Shown: piece after piece, positions 191-5,750 of the stretch
Position numbering within the stretch: the stretch's first letter is position 1
Layout of the letters: the number at the start of each line of letters is the position of its first letter
Assembly (NCBI GenBank): GCA_017395685.1
Contig: JAFQOD010000071.1
Location: forward strand, 1 to 34,748
DNA length: 34,748 nucleotides
Direction: 5' to 3'
Source: Clostridia bacterium
GTDB taxonomy: Bacteria > Bacillota > Clostridia > Christensenellales > Aristaeellaceae
Translations under genes and position numbers: made by a program
Notes under the pieces: generated by a model
Database searches by the model: none
Told to the model about the DNA's origin: nothing
The model's input: only the letters and a program-made list of their open reading frames with translations

Positions 191-2092
191 TTACTGGGCA
201 GCCTTTTCCAGAGCGGCAGCAACAGCCTTCATGATCGCCTTGGAGGTAACGGTGGCATTGGAAACGGCATCCACATCGGGATCGTTGGCAGCCATGATGG
301 CTTCAGGAATGCTCTTGAGCACGGGACCGGCGATGGTGGGGGTTTCCTGGTTGGCGGTCACTTCCACAGCCAGGATCTTATTGTTTTCCACGATCACAGC
401 CACGCTCAGGGGGGCGTTGTGGCCATCCACGGTGGCTTCATAGATGCCATCCTTCAGGGCACGGGTCATATCGAACAGCTCTTCAGCAGCTTCCACTTCA
501 TCGGTGAAGAAGGCCATATCCAGGATGCCGGCAGCTTCCTTCACTTCGTAGCCTTCAGCGGGGGTATTGGCCATGGCATGACGGGCAGCCACCTTACCAA
601 ACACGATGGGGCCCATGACGCCGGTACCGCCGGATACGAACTTGCCCCAGATACCGCCAACGGTTTCGCCGGCAGCATACAGGCCGGGGATCACATTGCC
701 AGCTTCATCCAGCACCTGCATGTTAGCATTGCAGGTTACGCCGCCCAGGGTCATAACGCACAGGGCATGGAGACGGATGGCATAATACTTTTCGCCTTCC
801 ACCTTGTTGGTGGCCAGGTTATAGGTATTCTTCACATTGTATTCGCGGCCGAATTCATCGGGTTCGCCCTTTTCTACGGCAGCATTGTAATCTTCGATGG
901 TCTTTTTCAGGTTTTCAGCGGGCACATTGATGGCGGCGGCCAGTTCTTCGATGGTATTGCCGGAATACATCACATGAGCGCCCAGGGAAGTTTCATTGGC
1001 GAAATAGGCAGCCATGAAGAAGTTCTGACCGGTGGCAGCCAGGTCAGCCAGGATCTTGTCAGTATAGATATCATACTGCACAGCGCCGGGCTGTTCTTCC
1101 AAGGCTACTTCGCGGGGAGCAGGATTGGATTCGGTTTCATTGGTGAAACGCTTGCCTTCCTGGTTAACCACGATGCCGCCGGTCTTCCAGGTATAGGTGG
1201 AAGCGATCTGGCCGCGGGTTTCGTCAGCCTTCAGGGTGAGGCCCATGGGGAAGGTGGGGATGGCTTCCATGGCAGTGATGCCAGCGCCAACTTCCTGCAT
1301 CAGACGAATGCCATGGCCATCAGCGCCGGGGGCGCCGCCAGCCAGGTAATATTCGCCGTATTCGGTATATTCACCCATCAGCTTGCTGTTGGAGGAATAA
1401 CCGCCGGTGCACATGATCACGGCCTTGGAGGCGGTGAGGGTGTATTCGTCATTGGCAACAACGGACAGCACCTGGCCCTTTTCATTGGCAACCAGCTTGG
1501 TCACCTTGGTGTTCAGGCGGATTTCGATCTTGTCTTCGGCAGCAACCAGCTTATCCAGCACTTCGTGAGCGGGGGACTTGTAGTTGACCTTGTCCTTGGG
1601 AGAGCCCTTATAGGTGCGGGGCACGGAATAGAGGGCATGTTCGGGGGCGAATACGGAATACTTGCCGGTCACGCGGTCAGCGGTGAGGCATTCCTTCACG
1701 CCGTTATCATACAGCCAATCGAAGGTTTCGGCAGCTTCATTGGCGTACACGGTGATCAGTTCCTTGTTGGGCTGACCGCCGAAATCATCGCCGTTATTCA
1801 TGATATCGCTGATATAGGATTCAACGGTATCTTCAACGCCTTCTTCTTTCTGGATCTTGGTGCCGGCAGCGGACATGGAACCGCTGGTGAAATTCAGGGC
1901 ACCGCCGGTCTTGCCGGTCATTTCCAGAACGATTACCTTTTCAGCGCCATTTTCCACAGCAGCCAGAGCAGCGGAAAGGCCGGCGCCGCCAGCACCAACG
2001 ACGATCACATCAGCGTCAGCGCCTTCAGCCATAGCGGGGATGCAGCCAACAAGCAGCATCAGAGAGAGCAGGATAGCCATCATGCGTTTCAT
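191..2092 (-). CDS. Exported FAD-dependent fumarate reductase-like oxidoreductase with C-terminal covalent-FMN domain
   Basis: This 633-residue protein belongs to the fumarate reductase/succinate dehydrogenase flavoprotein family. An N-terminal signal sequence ends in LLVGC (Cys17, possible lipobox) or could be cut after AMA (residue 22). The FAD-binding GAGGAG is at 33-38, and the late FAD motif GLYAAGETVGG lies in the last third. Residues about 548-632 form an FMN_bind domain with the flavinylation motif D608-AVSNAT614; Thr614 should carry FMN attached by ApbE outside the membrane. The usual substrate stretch HHTMGGV reads VMTLGGV here, so the acceptor may not be fumarate. The RBS AAAGGAGG precedes ATG 2092. 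It follows the NusG-II gene by about 106 bases with no convincing terminator between. Substrate unknown; family call firm. Confidence 0.88.
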   Translation of the reverse strand: MKRMMAILLSLMLLVGCIPAMAEGADADVIVVGAGGAGLSAALAAVENGAEKVIVLEMTGKTGGALNFTSGSMSAAGTKIQKEEGVEDTVESYISDIMNNGDDFGGQPNKELITVYANEAAETFDWLYDNGVKECLTADRVTGKYSVFAPEHALYSVPRTYKGSPKDKVNYKSPAHEVLDKLVAAEDKIEIRLNTKVTKLVANEKGQVLSVVANDEYTLTASKAVIMCTGGYSSNSKLMGEYTEYGEYYLAGGAPGADGHGIRLMQEVGAGITAMEAIPTFPMGLTLKADETRGQIASTYTWKTGGIVVNQEGKRFTNETESNPAPREVALEEQPGAVQYDIYTDKILADLAATGQNFFMAAYFANETSLGAHVMYSGNTIEELAAAINVPAENLKKTIEDYNAAVEKGEPDEFGREYNVKNTYNLATNKVEGEKYYAIRLHALCVMTLGGVTCNANMQVLDEAGNVIPGLYAAGETVGGIWGKFVSGGTGVMGPIVFGKVAARHAMANTPAEGYEVKEAAGILDMAFFTDEVEAAEELFDMTRALKDGIYEATVDGHNAPLSVAVIVENNKILAVEVTANQETPTIAGPVLKSIPEAIMAANDPDVDAVSNATVTSKAIMKAVAAALEKAAQ

Positions 2093-2198: not shown

Positions 2199-2639
2199 TT
2201 ACTGATTTTTCTCCTGCTGCATTTCTTTCATTTCCTCTGCGCTGTATAATTCAATAATCACATCATTGGGAAGGCACAGGATCGAATTTTTCAGCACACG
2301 GCTGGCCCTGTTTTCCAATGTGACCACGCCCTGCATGACGCAATCCTGATTTTCACAGGTAGATTCCTTCATATAAACACTATCCGGTGTAAAAGCAATT
2401 ATATTGCGGATTTCTTCTCCATTGCTGCCATTCCGCCTGAGCTGGATACTGGTTTCCTCCTCCGGAAGGGTGAACCACCGGCCCTGCCCGGCCGCTTTGA
2501 TATATACGTACCCGGCAGCATCCTCATTCCCTTCCGGCAGGGTTTCAGGGCGGTGCACAATCACCAGGGAAAGCGCAGCAATCCCTGCGATCACCCCAAG
2601 GCATATCAGTAAAATCAGCAGATTTTTCTTCTTCATCAT
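2199..2639 (-). CDS. Membrane-anchored NusG domain II protein
   Basis: A 146-residue protein with one membrane segment near the N-terminus (ILLICLGVIAGIAALSLVIV) and an extracytoplasmic domain resembling NusG domain II (Pfam NusG_II, formerly DUF1312). Its signature is visible: STCENQDCVMQG followed by ILCLPNDVIIEL, giving three cysteines in the usual pattern. Free-standing proteins of this family recur next to genes for ApbE, FMN_bind and related extracytoplasmic flavin proteins in Bacillota, which fits the downstream FMN-domain oxidoreductase. I chose ATG 2639 (alternatives 2636, 2645) because GGGGG lies just before it and a strong promoter lies at 2667-2695, which rules out the longer frame starting at 2720. 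Function of the family is not established. Confidence 0.75.
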   Translation of the reverse strand: MMKKKNLLILLICLGVIAGIAALSLVIVHRPETLPEGNEDAAGYVYIKAAGQGRWFTLPEEETSIQLRRNGSNGEEIRNIIAFTPDSVYMKESTCENQDCVMQGVVTLENRASRVLKNSILCLPNDVIIELYSAEEMKEMQQEKNQ

Positions 2640-2666
2640 ATACATCCCCCATCCTGGAATCAATTC

Positions 2667-2695
2667 ATTGTAAGAAGAAACCACGCCTTTGTCAA
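2667..2695 (-). promoter_or_regulatory. SigA-type promoter for the NusG-II gene
   Basis: On the minus strand TTGACA (2695-2690) and TACAAT (2672-2667) are separated by 17 bases. It lies about 28 bases before the chosen start and is immediately preceded by the terminator of the murB operon. Confidence 0.75.
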
Positions 2696-2727
2696 TGAAA
2701 AAAGAAAGAATTACCATCACGCCGCAT

Positions 2728-2752
2728 AAAAAATCCCGCCTTTCCGGCGGGA
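2728..2752 (-). terminator. Intrinsic terminator of the murB-whiA-Crh/nucleotidyltransferase operon
   Basis: On the minus strand TCCCGCC and GGCGGGA form a seven-pair stem with a five-base loop, followed by TTTTTT. It lies 18 bases after the stop of the fusion gene. Confidence 0.85.
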
Positions 2753-2769
2753 CGCATTTCTCTCGATTT

Positions 2770-3795
2770 TTATTTGCACAATTCTTCCATTACTTCATAG
2801 CAGAAATCCTCTGCTTGGCCTTCATCATAGAACATATCCCGGCCTGATTGATAAGCGTTCAGGGCGGCCTGAATCACGCTCTGATGAGCATGGGGAAGAT
2901 TCTTCAGCGCCCATTCGCCCCCGCTTTTTTTGGAAAGCACCAGATTTTCCCGATAATAGGCAAGGGCACGGCAAAGCGTCAGCACATAATAGACGGGATT
3001 TTCATGCAGTTCTTCCCCCACATCAGCCAGATCATTCTGGATGGAGGCCAGGGCATCCTCCCTTTTCACTTTACCGAAAACCCGGGCCGCACTGGGGCCG
3101 TGGATCACTGCACCGAAGGCATGCACCGTCAGGATATGGGTGGCCAGATCGGGATCCACGCCGTGCATTTCTTCACAGAAGCCCCGGGGATCCTTTTCAT
3201 ATGCCTTGGTCCAGCGGGGAGAATAATGCAGATCATAGGGCATGGGATATTCCATTTCCCGGCAATCCGCCTCCAGCAGCACGCTCATTTCAAATCCCTT
3301 GGAGGGTGCATCCTCCCGGAGGGCATAGAGCGTTTCCACTACAGCGATCTTTTTTTCGACGGTCAGCGGCTGTTTTACCACCACCAGGAAATCGATATCA
3401 CTGTGCTCCCACTGGAAGCAGCCGGCGGCCAGAGATCCATGCAAATAAATGCCCACCAGATTATCCTCCAGGATATTGGCAAAGGCGTGCTTGATCTGAT
3501 GCACCAGCACATCCGCATTGGCGGCATCCTTGGGGGGCGTTACCCCGGCATCCAGCAGTTTCTTGATCTCCTGAGCAGCGATTTCCTCATCATCGCCCTC
3601 CACAATCAGGGTTACAGGTTCGTGGCCTGTAACCCCCATGGAAAGCAGACCCAGCATGGATTTTCCATTGATGGTGCGGTTTCTGTGCTCCAACAGAATG
3701 CGGGAGGCAAATTTCCCCGCCAGATGCACCAGATGCTCAATCTGCACCCGATTGAGGGGCGTAACCCCCGCCAAATCCAGATTATGCTTGATCAT
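2770..3795 (-). CDS. Crh-like HPr domain fused to an AadA-type nucleotidyltransferase
   Basis: A single 341-residue frame holds two domains. Residues 1-86 are an HPr/Crh fold; the regulatory serine falls exactly at Ser46 in NGKSMLG, the HPrK target in HPr and Crh. The PTS histidine is absent: position 15 is Asn, so PEP-dependent phosphotransfer is unlikely, as in Crh (Gln15 in Bacillus). Residues about 95-341 resemble aminoglycoside 3''-adenylyltransferases (NTP_transf_2 plus DUF4111): GS at 120-121, SDID at 132-135 with metal-binding Asp133 and Asp135, and FEMSVL with candidate catalytic Glu169. Its start overlaps whiA by 14 bases. Bacillus places crh just after whiA, so the first domain sits where Crh is expected. 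Substrate unknown; resistance is possible but a regulatory nucleotidyltransferase is equally open. Confidence 0.85.
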   Translation of the reverse strand: MIKHNLDLAGVTPLNRVQIEHLVHLAGKFASRILLEHRNRTINGKSMLGLLSMGVTGHEPVTLIVEGDDEEIAAQEIKKLLDAGVTPPKDAANADVLVHQIKHAFANILEDNLVGIYLHGSLAAGCFQWEHSDIDFLVVVKQPLTVEKKIAVVETLYALREDAPSKGFEMSVLLEADCREMEYPMPYDLHYSPRWTKAYEKDPRGFCEEMHGVDPDLATHILTVHAFGAVIHGPSAARVFGKVKREDALASIQNDLADVGEELHENPVYYVLTLCRALAYYRENLVLSKKSGGEWALKNLPHAHQSVIQAALNAYQSGRDMFYDEGQAEDFCYEVMEELCK

Positions 3796-4744
3796 TTACC
3801 TCATCCTTATTTTCAGGCTGTGCTTCAATGATAGCCATTAGTTTACGCATTCGGTGATTGACGCCGGATTTTCCCACAGGAACGGCCAGCATCTGCCCCA
3901 GTTCCTCCAGGGAGGCTTCGGGGTGCAGCATTCGGATCCTGCCCAGCTCCTGCAGATCCCTGGGCAGCGCCCCCAGGCTGTTTTTCAGAGAATAGGATAC
4001 GATGGCCTGGGCCTGCTTTGCCCCGGCAGTCAATTGTTTTTTCAGATTGGCTTCATCGCAATTCCGGGCCCGGTTGGCCTGATTGCGGCCATCCCGGCGG
4101 ATGCGGATATTTTCCATTTCCAGCAGGGAGCTATGCGCCCCCATCAGCGCCAGGGCGGATACCACGTCATCCCCTTTTTTGATATATACCACCTTTGCCC
4201 CCCTGCGCTGGGTGGCGGAGGATTGGATTCCGCTCTTTTCCAGAATCTTCATCAGCGTTTCCGCCCTGGATTCCGCAGAGGTAAACTCCAGATGGTATCC
4301 CCGCTCCGGGGTGGTAACGGCCCCTGCCCCCAAAAATGCCGCCCGCACAAAGGATGCCCGGCAGCAGCGGCGGGTCATGGCTGCCCGGGGCACCCCCCTG
4401 TAAACCGCCCCTTCATCCGATTCCTGCAGCATATGCAGGGCAATGAGCAGCCGGCGGCTTTCCGCTTCCGGCACCGTCAGCACCGATACACGCCTGCCGC
4501 CCAGCCTTTTATAGCGGGTGAATTCCAGGGTAGGGCTGATTTCCAGCCGTTTTTTCAAAAGAAGAAAGATGCGCTTGGCCAGAGGGGCGCTTTCCGTTTC
4601 ATAAACCACCTTAACCCTGCCCCGTCCGGCCAGACGGAGGGAGGCGCAGGCCTGGGTCAGGGCGCTGAGCTCAGAAAGCATGCAGCATTGCTTTTCCGGA
4701 TGGATGCGCAGCAATTCTTCTTTCACAAGGGAAGAAAAGCTCAT
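3782..4744 (-). CDS. whiA: Sporulation/cell-division regulator WhiA
   Basis: A 320-residue WhiA, close to the usual 315-320. The N-terminus MSFSSLVKEELLRI is typical, a LAGLIDADG-like homing-endonuclease fold fills the first two thirds, and the C-terminal helix-turn-helix region contains NRARNCDEANLKK and LQELGRIRMLHPEASLEELG. WhiA proteins are DNA-binding factors linked to cell division, chromosome segregation and, in actinomycetes, sporulation; they no longer cut DNA. The gene overlaps the end of murB by four bases (ATGA) and the following Crh-like fusion gene by 14, implying translational coupling. The rapZ and yvcK genes that often lie between murB and whiA in Clostridia are missing here. 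Confidence 0.93.
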   Translation of the reverse strand: MSFSSLVKEELLRIHPEKQCCMLSELSALTQACASLRLAGRGRVKVVYETESAPLAKRIFLLLKKRLEISPTLEFTRYKRLGGRRVSVLTVPEAESRRLLIALHMLQESDEGAVYRGVPRAAMTRRCCRASFVRAAFLGAGAVTTPERGYHLEFTSAESRAETLMKILEKSGIQSSATQRRGAKVVYIKKGDDVVSALALMGAHSSLLEMENIRIRRDGRNQANRARNCDEANLKKQLTAGAKQAQAIVSYSLKNSLGALPRDLQELGRIRMLHPEASLEELGQMLAVPVGKSGVNHRMRKLMAIIEAQPENKDEVNDQA

Positions 4745-5646
4745 TTTTCATTCCCCACAATACGCACTTCATTTTCCATATGCACTCCAAATTTTTCCCA
4801 TACGGTATCCTGTACCTTTTTCATCAGGCCCAGAAAATCGGAGGCCGTGGCATTGCCGGTATTGATCAGAAAACCGGCATGCTTTTCACTCACCTGGGCG
4901 CCGCCGACGGATACGCCCTTCAAATTCGACTGTTCAATCAGCGCCCCGGCAAAATATCCTGCAGGCCGCTTGAAAAAGGATCCGGCGCTGGGATATTCCA
5001 GGGGCTGCTTCGTTTTCCGGCGCAGGGCCAGATCCTGCATTTTTTCATCGATTTCCTTGGGATCGCCCAATTCCAGGCGAAAAGCGGCCCCCAGCACGAT
5101 CCATTTTTCATCCATTGCCTTGGTATGGCGATAGGAAAATGCCATTTCTTCAGCAGGAATTTCCCGGATTTCTTCTCCATCCAGAATACGCAGGGATTCA
5201 ATCACCTGGGCCATCTCCCCGCCATAGGCGCCGGCATTCATATAAACGCCGCCGCCCACCGTGCCGGGAATGCCCTGGGCAAATTCCAGCCCGGTATAGG
5301 CATATCTCAGCGCTTCCTTGGCGAGGGCGCTCATCAGCGCACCGGACTGGGCATACAGCCCGTTATCCCTTTTTTCGATAGCAGAAAACTTTTTCCCCAA
5401 ACGGATCACCAGGCCCTGGAAGCCGCCATCCCTTACCAGCAGATTGGATCCATTGCCAATCAAAAGCACAGGCGTATCCGTTTCCCGGGCCGCTTTGAGC
5501 ATATTGCACAGGGTTAATTCATTTTCAGGTTCAGCAAAATAATCTGCCGGGCCGCCTACCCGCAGTGTAGTATATTTATCCAGGGATACATTCCGCCGGA
5601 TCACTGCCTCCGGGCAGTATTTTTTCATATAATCTAATAACATCAT
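4741..5646 (-). CDS. murB: UDP-N-acetylenolpyruvoylglucosamine reductase MurB
   Basis: A 301-residue MurB that reduces UDP-GlcNAc enolpyruvate to UDP-MurNAc in peptidoglycan synthesis, using FAD and NADPH in the cytoplasm. Visible are NTTLR-like YTTLRVGGPA near the N-terminus, the FAD-binding GNGSNLLV, GIPGTVGGGVYMNAGAYG, the catalytic serine in SAGSFFKRP, and the C-terminal glutamate in ENEVRIVG. I start at ATG 5646 rather than further upstream because GGGGG is correctly spaced and the promoter at 5663-5691 lies just before it. First gene of the murB-whiA-Crh/nucleotidyltransferase operon. Confidence 0.95.
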   Translation of the reverse strand: MMLLDYMKKYCPEAVIRRNVSLDKYTTLRVGGPADYFAEPENELTLCNMLKAARETDTPVLLIGNGSNLLVRDGGFQGLVIRLGKKFSAIEKRDNGLYAQSGALMSALAKEALRYAYTGLEFAQGIPGTVGGGVYMNAGAYGGEMAQVIESLRILDGEEIREIPAEEMAFSYRHTKAMDEKWIVLGAAFRLELGDPKEIDEKMQDLALRRKTKQPLEYPSAGSFFKRPAGYFAGALIEQSNLKGVSVGGAQVSEKHAGFLINTGNATASDFLGLMKKVQDTVWEKFGVHMENEVRIVGNEK

Positions 5647-5662
5647 CTTTAATCCCCCATGC

Positions 5663-5691
5663 ATTATATCAAAATCCCCGCAGCAGATCAA
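5663..5691 (-). promoter_or_regulatory. SigA-type promoter of the murB operon
   Basis: On the minus strand TTGATC (5691-5686) and TATAAT (5668-5663) are 17 bases apart. The -10 box ends 16 bases before the murB ATG, so the leader is very short. Confidence 0.78.
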
Positions 5692-5750
5692 GTGCCACGG
5701 GAGAAAGGATTTCATTTTTTATAGATTTTTATACCATTTCCAACAATTTT

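Follow-up and report, generated by a model that had tools for sequence, protein, structure and literature searches.

A single gene that fuses a Crh-like HPr domain to an AadA-fold nucleotidyltransferase lies directly after whiA, and the fusion is real and conserved. The gene was found in the window (the whole 34,748-nucleotide stretch of DNA that was analysed), where it and its associated features are located as follows.

2770..3795, minus strand: HPr(Crh-like)-nucleotidyltransferase fusion gene, a single uninterrupted ATG open reading frame (ORF) of 341 amino acids.
3538..3795, minus strand: HPr/Crh-like domain, residues 1-86 (Pfam PTS-HPr; 29-orthologue profile against Crh 1mo1, residues 1-85).
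3751..3753, minus strand: Asn15 codon, at the position of the PTS histidine (N/S/T/D in 29/29 rows of the alignment).
3658..3660, minus strand: Ser46 codon, within the invariant N43-G49 segment NGKSMLG (29-row alignment).
3502..3537, minus strand: linker, residues 87-98 (no indels in 29 sequences).
2773..3501, minus strand: AadA-fold nucleotidyltransferase (NTP_transf_2 plus AadA_C), residues 99-341 (profile matches, AadA ligand mapping).
3391..3399, minus strand: predicted metal-binding D133-x-D135, corresponding to AadA D47/D49 (AadA ligand mapping).
3289..3291, minus strand: E169, corresponding to Glu87, the catalytic base of AadA (no variation in 29 rows; Glu87 as given in the available part of PMC6065190).
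2968..2970, minus strand: R276, equivalent of AadA Arg192, which contacts ATP phosphates (invariant in 29 rows).
2929..2931, minus strand: K289, equivalent of AadA Lys205, which contacts ATP phosphates (invariant in 29 rows).
3782..4744, minus strand: whiA (TIGR00647, 234.9 bits), overlapping the start of the fusion by 14 nt.
4741..5715, minus strand: murB ORF (NF010480, 366.5 bits), overlapping whiA by 4 nt.
2733..2753, minus strand: stem resembling an intrinsic terminator, with a T run after it, just 3' of the fusion stop (consensus scan only).
5663..5691, minus strand: sigma-70-like promoter match, 10/12, ahead of the likely murB start (consensus scan only).

A sequence-only reading of this DNA had proposed one uninterrupted HPr-nucleotidyltransferase frame in the whiA operon, without stating its strand. 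The 341-residue minus-strand ORF bears this out, and the residues named in that reading are all where it put them (N15, S46, G120-S121, S132-D133-I134-D135 and F168-E169-M170-S171-V172-L173). The domain search that it recommended placed PTS-HPr, NTP_transf_2 and AadA_C on one chain. In Pfam, PTS-HPr (PF00381) matches residues 20-82 (E 5.9e-14, 52.3 bits, cut-off 23), both NTP_transf_2 (23 bits, cut-off 21) and Polbeta (28.1, cut-off 26.9) match residues 110-157, and AadA_C matches residues 238-332 (E 5e-25). The last of these domains goes by the name DUF4111 in the available part of PMC6065190. The fusion narrowly missed the NCBIfam HPr family model TIGR01003 (45.3 bits against a cut-off of 47.9). 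Searched against PDB chains, a profile built from 29 orthologues found Crh and HPr at the N-terminus, with Crh chains 1mo1 (residues 1-85), 2ak7 (1-84), and 2rlz and 1zvv (both 1-83), and found AadA and ANT(9) over residues 95-334.

Given the gene overlaps, the promoter-like match and the terminator-like stem, murB, whiA and the fusion could be a single transcription unit. The promoter scan returned 11 such sites in the region against 7.0 expected. Family matches suggest that the true start of murB is probably nearer 5646. Just downstream of the operon, on the minus strand, is a gene for a NusG domain II protein (window 2199-2720; PF07009, E 7e-11) with its own promoter-like match (11/12 at 2695-2667, consensus scan), and beyond it, on the same strand, a gene for an FAD-binding oxidoreductase with a C-terminal FMN_bind domain (window 191-2092, Pfam) and an N-terminus that looks signal-like by eye.

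Sixty relatives were searched, 43 of which had some match. A full-length, stop-free fusion is present in 28/29 genomes of the genus, G017 being the exception, and in G032 of another genus. A profile search of contigs recovered 36 loci, comprising 30 fusions and six HPr-only genes. Fusion carriers number 31 genomes including the window; L103 and L104 represent two further, remote genomes. The sequence-only reading had considered that homologues might be split by a stop between the domains, and no such stop is present in the fused loci examined. The whiA gene adjoins the fusion in 29/30 loci (overlapping in 19 and no more than 220 nt ahead in 10), and the 30th piece ends too early. In G017, whiA is followed by an ORF that by eye resembles IMP dehydrogenase. 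The titles of the fusion-bearing records name uncultured Clostridia, Clostridiales or Christensenellaceae and, where an animal or organ is given, ruminants.

No fusion was found outside the family: all listed matches except the one from the window's own genome begin no earlier than profile position 89 and are thus nucleotidyltransferases without HPr. Matches to the nucleotidyltransferase profile at E 1e-20 or better occur in 27/396 genomes of the order, 21/391 of the class and 18/398 of the phylum, these surveys being even draws that share some genomes and in which at most five candidates were scored per genome. Stand-alone relatives of the nucleotidyltransferase are sporadic: with the window's own genome set aside, 26/395 genomes of the order have one at E 1e-20.

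Further comparisons used a 68-row alignment (A2) of fused, nucleotidyltransferase-only and HPr-only proteins. It holds 27/31 fused rows (the near-copies L007, L009, L012 and L026, present in alignment A1, were omitted), 24/27 nucleotidyltransferase-only rows (L061, L062 and L073 were omitted for extra sequence) and 17/22 HPr-only rows, from which L114, L125 and L127 (degenerate near Ser46), L123 (fused) and L135 (unsure start) were omitted. On a tree of the 51 nucleotidyltransferase domains, 27 fused and 24 stand-alone, the label "fusion" changes once, with support of 100/98. Columns 2-338 of the 29-row alignment are gap-free, and the linker is thus of one length. Both halves are under purifying selection. 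Among the 14 closest of the 406 pairs (pairs that share sequences), dN/dS ranges over 0.04-0.37 in the HPr half and 0.05-0.30 in the nucleotidyltransferase half, and for several close pairs it is higher in the HPr half.

The whiA-linked HPr gene also exists on its own. The six HPr-only loci have the order murB-whiA-HPr with no nucleotidyltransferase match on the piece. Of 28 genomes chosen for a survey of whiA neighbours, 26 had a whiA match; 16 of these have an HPr-like ORF just after whiA, and none was seen there in the other 10. Three of the 16 ORFs are degenerate near Ser46, one is fused to another domain and one has an unsure start. All 22 unfused or otherwise fused HPr proteins from the 6 + 16 loci pass the PF00381 cut-off. 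The 17 unfused HPr rows of A2 all lack His15 and carry Ser46, and the five HPr proteins omitted from A2 also lack His15, as judged by eye. With such a gene in 16/26 sampled genomes, a Crh-like gene standing separately after whiA appears to be the ancestral state. Since whiA-linked HPr genes are found without the enzyme, and several genomes (e.g. G343, G070 and G084) have a whiA-linked HPr and a separate nucleotidyltransferase elsewhere, the fusion most likely arose once in the family, by joining of a nucleotidyltransferase to a whiA-linked Crh.

Two loci seen in this survey differ from the rest. In G414, from another genus of the family (L123:327-1469, minus strand), the Crh-like HPr next to whiA continues in the same frame into a TIM barrel resembling xylose isomerase (Pfam AP_endonuc_2, E 8e-33). 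This is possibly a second kind of Crh fusion; it comes from a single genome, the sole one examined of its genus, and a lost stop is possible. In G031 (L126), a frame about 78 nt after whiA begins with a GFHARPAA stretch, the His15 active-site motif. Pfam PTS-HPr has no match in the G031 genome, and the frame is possibly a broken or shifted HPr gene.

Crh is recognised by the absence of His15 together with a regulatory Ser46, and the HPr domain of the fusion shows both, in agreement with the sequence-only reading. Residue 15 is never His in 29 rows (N in 18, S in 9, T and D in 1 each), while N43-G-K-S46-M-L-G49 is invariant in 29/29. Ser46 is also present in the remote L103 and L104, the latter with Val replacing Met47, and in all 44 fused and unfused HPr rows of A2 (27 + 17). 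A role as a PTS phosphocarrier was considered and rejected on the missing histidine. T12, R16 and Q18 are fixed in 27/27 fused rows vs 0, 5 and 0 of the 17 unfused HPr rows, so the former His15 loop has gained a fusion-specific constraint. Residue 17 is variable and never Arg in 29 rows; in Crh and HPr this position is an Arg that contacts CcpA.

The second half of the protein retains part of the active site of AadA. In the available part of PMC6065190, the AadA residues that bind phosphates, Mg and ribose are given as Ser36, Ser46, Asp47, Asp49, Glu87, Asp130, Arg192, Lys205 and Tyr231, with Glu87 as the catalytic base. These nine map to S121, S132, D133, D135, E169, D216, R276, K289 and Y315 of the fusion, and all nine are invariant in 29/29 rows. 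The sequence-only reading had asked whether Ser46 and the acidic metal residues are lost in close relatives; all are kept throughout the 29 rows. Catalysis using an NTP is therefore very probable on the basis of these residues.

The residues that determine what AadA acts on are a different matter. The acceptor ring of AadA is formed by Trp112, Asp182 and His/Asn185, with Trp173 and Asp178 added for streptomycin, and the adenine is surrounded by Leu133, Leu166, Thr189, Arg192, Ile193, Thr196 and Phe202 (available parts of PMC6065190 and PMC4631478). At the acceptor positions of the fusion, W195 (AadA W112) is Trp in 10/29 rows, N266 (D182) is Asp in 2/29 and Y269 (H/N185) is Tyr in 29/29. At the streptomycin positions, A257 (W173) is never Trp and E262 (D178) is never Asp in 29 rows. 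The mapping is gap-free from AadA residue 182 to 192, and it has one gap near W112, where it is less sure. In the adenine pocket, L133, L166, T189, I193, T196 and F202 are identical in 0, 2, 6, 0, 0 and 2 of 29 rows, with Ile at the position of L166 in 27/29. Because the acceptor and adenine residues have changed, AadA is no guide to either the acceptor or the nucleobase, though the phosphate and metal chemistry appears to be kept, and with most adenine-pocket residues different it is not sure that ATP is the donor. NCBIfam ANT models score the fusion far below every cut-off (ANT_9: 84.6 vs 340). We conclude that the domain is probably an active nucleotidyltransferase with an acceptor other than streptomycin or spectinomycin, and perhaps with another nucleotide. 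The resistance design offered in the sequence-only reading is not supported for these two drugs, since none of the AadA residues W112, D182, H/N185, W173 and D178 is conserved; the enzyme may modify another drug.

The stand-alone nucleotidyltransferases share H190, D214, D216 and K289 in 24/24 rows and Y269 in 23/24, which suggests that stand-alone and fused enzymes have an acceptor type in common. Position 262 in the stand-alone rows is Asp in 9/24 and Glu in 10/24, unlike in the fused rows. Of 4538 plasmid records 12 were listed, and the best annotated relative among these is WP_050574726.1 of a Campylobacter jejuni plasmid, with 38% identity to the nucleotidyltransferase half over 241 residues and one gap; the ANT(9) of the same plasmid has 19% identity over 208 residues. 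The 93% query cover of the plasmid match had raised the possibility of a fusion there. This was rejected, as the gene annotated there begins beyond the end of the adjacent APH gene and BLASTP aligns residues 97-336 only. The plasmid, pCJ41K-01 (L152:2398-5332), carries the relative between APH-family and GNAT genes, in a cluster that includes aph(3')-IIIa, a further APH and GNAT, as well as the nearby ant(9) and aph(2'')-If. The relative may have come from Firmicutes, which is a guess. In G132 (L144:3358-5845), one chain has the order GNAT-nucleotidyltransferase-GNAT and is followed by an APH-family gene, bringing three aminoglycoside-modifying fold classes together. With regard to an anti-phage role, PADLOC matches were partial only (PDC-S09, best E 5.3e-9, residues 93-153), and there was no PHROG match for the fusion.

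The window's own genome, which is 96% complete, encodes a single HPr kinase that passes the cut-off (379 bits, both Pfam domains) and matches a solved HPr kinase structure at E 2.7e-83 (282.8 bits). Its gene (G000:C48, L138:1197-3089) is closely followed by a ROK-family sugar kinase gene, a neighbour that suits sugar uptake without a PTS. HPr kinase was found in 28/29 genomes of the genus; G009 (81% complete) has the fusion and no HPr kinase was found in it, and G017 has kept the kinase without the fusion. In the window's own genome nothing matches the Enzyme I N-domain profile, so a PTS role for the fusion there is unlikely. No full-length HPr with His15 was found in that genome either, its HPr-like stretches being the fusion and one short protein of 75-84 aa that has DAKSILG and no His15. 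The gene for the short protein (G000:C71, L137:1671-2900) adjoins one for an AP_endonuc_2 TIM barrel, the same domain as in the G414 fusion. Enzyme I is strongly matched in 10/28 fusion genomes, and these ten are also the ones with a full-length HPr match (E 1e-27 or better); in the rest of the 29 genus genomes neither was found, apart from a weak Enzyme I match below the cut-off in G019. The fusion thus occurs both in genomes that have a PTS and in genomes that seem to lack one. Incompleteness of many genomes makes absences of PTS genes soft, and with this in mind the PTS looks patchy within the genus and HPr kinase kept.

We propose that the fusion is a single-chain metabolic switch, with the Crh-like domain as input and the AadA-fold domain as output. 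When glycolytic intermediates are high, HPr kinase would phosphorylate Ser46, an event that we consider likely in this genome. The AadA-fold domain would bind an NTP (ATP or another) with two Mg ions and move the NMP to a hydroxyl of an acceptor, probably neither streptomycin nor spectinomycin. Phospho-Ser46, or HPr kinase or another partner docked on the face formed by the His15 loop and Ser46, would alter the activity or targeting of the nucleotidyltransferase via the linker of fixed length. The phosphorylation, the coupling between the domains, the nucleotide and the acceptor are what we infer, and we give slightly less than an even chance to the central proposal, that Ser46 phosphorylation controls the enzyme according to carbon status. 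It is favoured by the single origin of the fusion, the gap-free linker, purifying selection, the invariance of Ser46 and of the ligands, the presence of HPr kinase, the lack of an Enzyme I match in the window's own genome, the constraint on T12, R16 and Q18, and the Crh-like gene after whiA in related genomes. Against it stand G009, the higher dN/dS of the HPr half in several close pairs, the changed adenine pocket and the location of nucleotidyltransferase relatives beside aminoglycoside-modifying genes. The short DAKSILG protein is also a possible alternative HPr kinase substrate in the same genome; together with the kinase of G017, it means that the presence of HPr kinase is no proof of its action on the fusion. 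The more specific claim, that this is the first regulated nucleotidyltransferase wired to HPr kinase, with carbon and energy status acting via Ser46 to switch nucleotide transfer to a cellular target, we regard as rather doubtful.

Because relatives of the enzyme are found among aminoglycoside-resistance genes, the main rival to the switch is a detoxifying or antibiotic-modifying AadA-fold enzyme that became fused to Crh; the HPr domain would then serve its expression, solubility or fixed location, and carbon control would matter little. The pCJ41K-01 relative within its resistance cluster, the GNAT-nucleotidyltransferase-GNAT chain of G132 and the sporadic occurrence of stand-alone relatives are all what such an enzyme would predict. 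However, the fused gene itself is not sporadic within the genus and has a fixed position after whiA, its HPr domain keeps Ser46 and is under purifying selection, and the streptomycin and spectinomycin residues are not conserved. AadA-fold proteins without those residues have been proposed to have another function in the available part of PMC6065190, which also cites a C. jejuni AadA-fold protein without streptomycin or spectinomycin resistance activity. We consider a detoxifying enzyme unlikely.

In another arrangement, the nucleotidyltransferase would add a nucleotide to a protein that the HPr face recruits, such as HPr kinase, WhiA, a LacI-family regulator or the HPr domain itself. GlnE and GlnD, which add nucleotides to protein targets, provide the model. 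The fixed linker length, the extra conservation of the His15 loop, the operon partner whiA and the missing drug-acceptor residues are consistent with a protein target, but the HPr-less stand-alone relatives share H190, D214 and Y269 (the last in 23/24), suggesting an acceptor that is reached without HPr docking. Protein modification of this kind is distinctly unlikely.

It is also conceivable that phospho-Ser46 of the fusion acts as a CcpA-type co-repressor like Crh, while the nucleotidyltransferase has an independent job. NGKSMLG is kept, and LacI-family proteins are present in the window's own genome, with 12 matches. The best of these, L041, matches the CcpA chain 1rzr_G at E 4.6e-64, but at 229 bits it is far below the CcpA cut-off of 442, which none of the 12 exceeds. 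L041, the sole LacI match aligned for this residue, has Lys at the Arg of the CcpA motif YDIGAVAMRLL; R304 of CcpA contacts phospho-Ser46 according to the available part of PMC4591507. Position 17 of the HPr domain, as noted above, is never Arg. We consider such a scaffold distinctly unlikely; control through CcpA as such may exist. Finally, a frameshift, assembly or lost-stop artefact is ruled out for practical purposes by 31 uninterrupted genomes from many assemblies, which form one clade with no indels and low dN/dS.

HPr kinase signalling acts through binding partners of phospho-Ser46 HPr or Crh. If the switch is correct, this signalling would reach beyond transcription (CcpA) and protein binding and act directly through an enzyme, and food supply would be coupled directly to chemical modification in bacteria many of which are seemingly without a sugar PTS. 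The Crh-enzyme fusion is kept in rumen and gut bacteria in which no Enzyme I was found, where the purpose of HPr kinase is puzzling. The fusion would also be a handle on the acceptors of AadA-fold enzymes, as its target would inform stand-alone relatives, some of them among aminoglycoside-resistance genes. No description of an HPr-nucleotidyltransferase fusion was found among the open-licence papers listed (titles and starts of abstracts). The domains and the gene position are known; their combination is unreported as far as could be seen, and is possibly a new output for HPr kinase signalling.

Comparison with known systems shows what is shared and what is distinct. AadA (ANT(3'')(9)) and ANT(9) share with the fusion the two-domain fold family, the phosphate, Mg and ribose ligands and the catalytic Glu, whereas the fused enzyme has changed acceptor residues and base pocket, falls below NCBIfam cut-offs and is joined to HPr. 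The third class of AadA-fold proteins in the available part of PMC6065190 likewise has the AadA architecture without the drug-acceptor residues, but those proteins are stand-alone with no HPr domain; the C. jejuni homologue WP_050574726.1 may or may not be the protein of that paper. Crh of Bacillus subtilis has, like the fusion, an HPr fold with no His15 and with Ser46 in a KS(I/M)(M/L)G context. Its gene lies after whiA, as the fusion does. Unlike Crh, the fusion has a C-terminal enzyme of 243 residues, no Arg17 and the specific T12/R16/Q18, in a genome without a match to Enzyme I or full-length HPr. Known HPr fusions such as FPr, DhaM and multiphosphoryl transfer proteins combine His15 with PTS domains for phosphoryl transfer. 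HPr and EI occur as single chains or as fusions, usually with a IIA domain, according to the available part of PMC2405797, which also mentions multiphosphoryl transfer proteins. The fusion described here has weak NCBIfam matches to the FPr and DhaM models and, like these proteins, joins an HPr domain to others; it differs from them in having no His15 and in carrying an enzyme of other chemistry.
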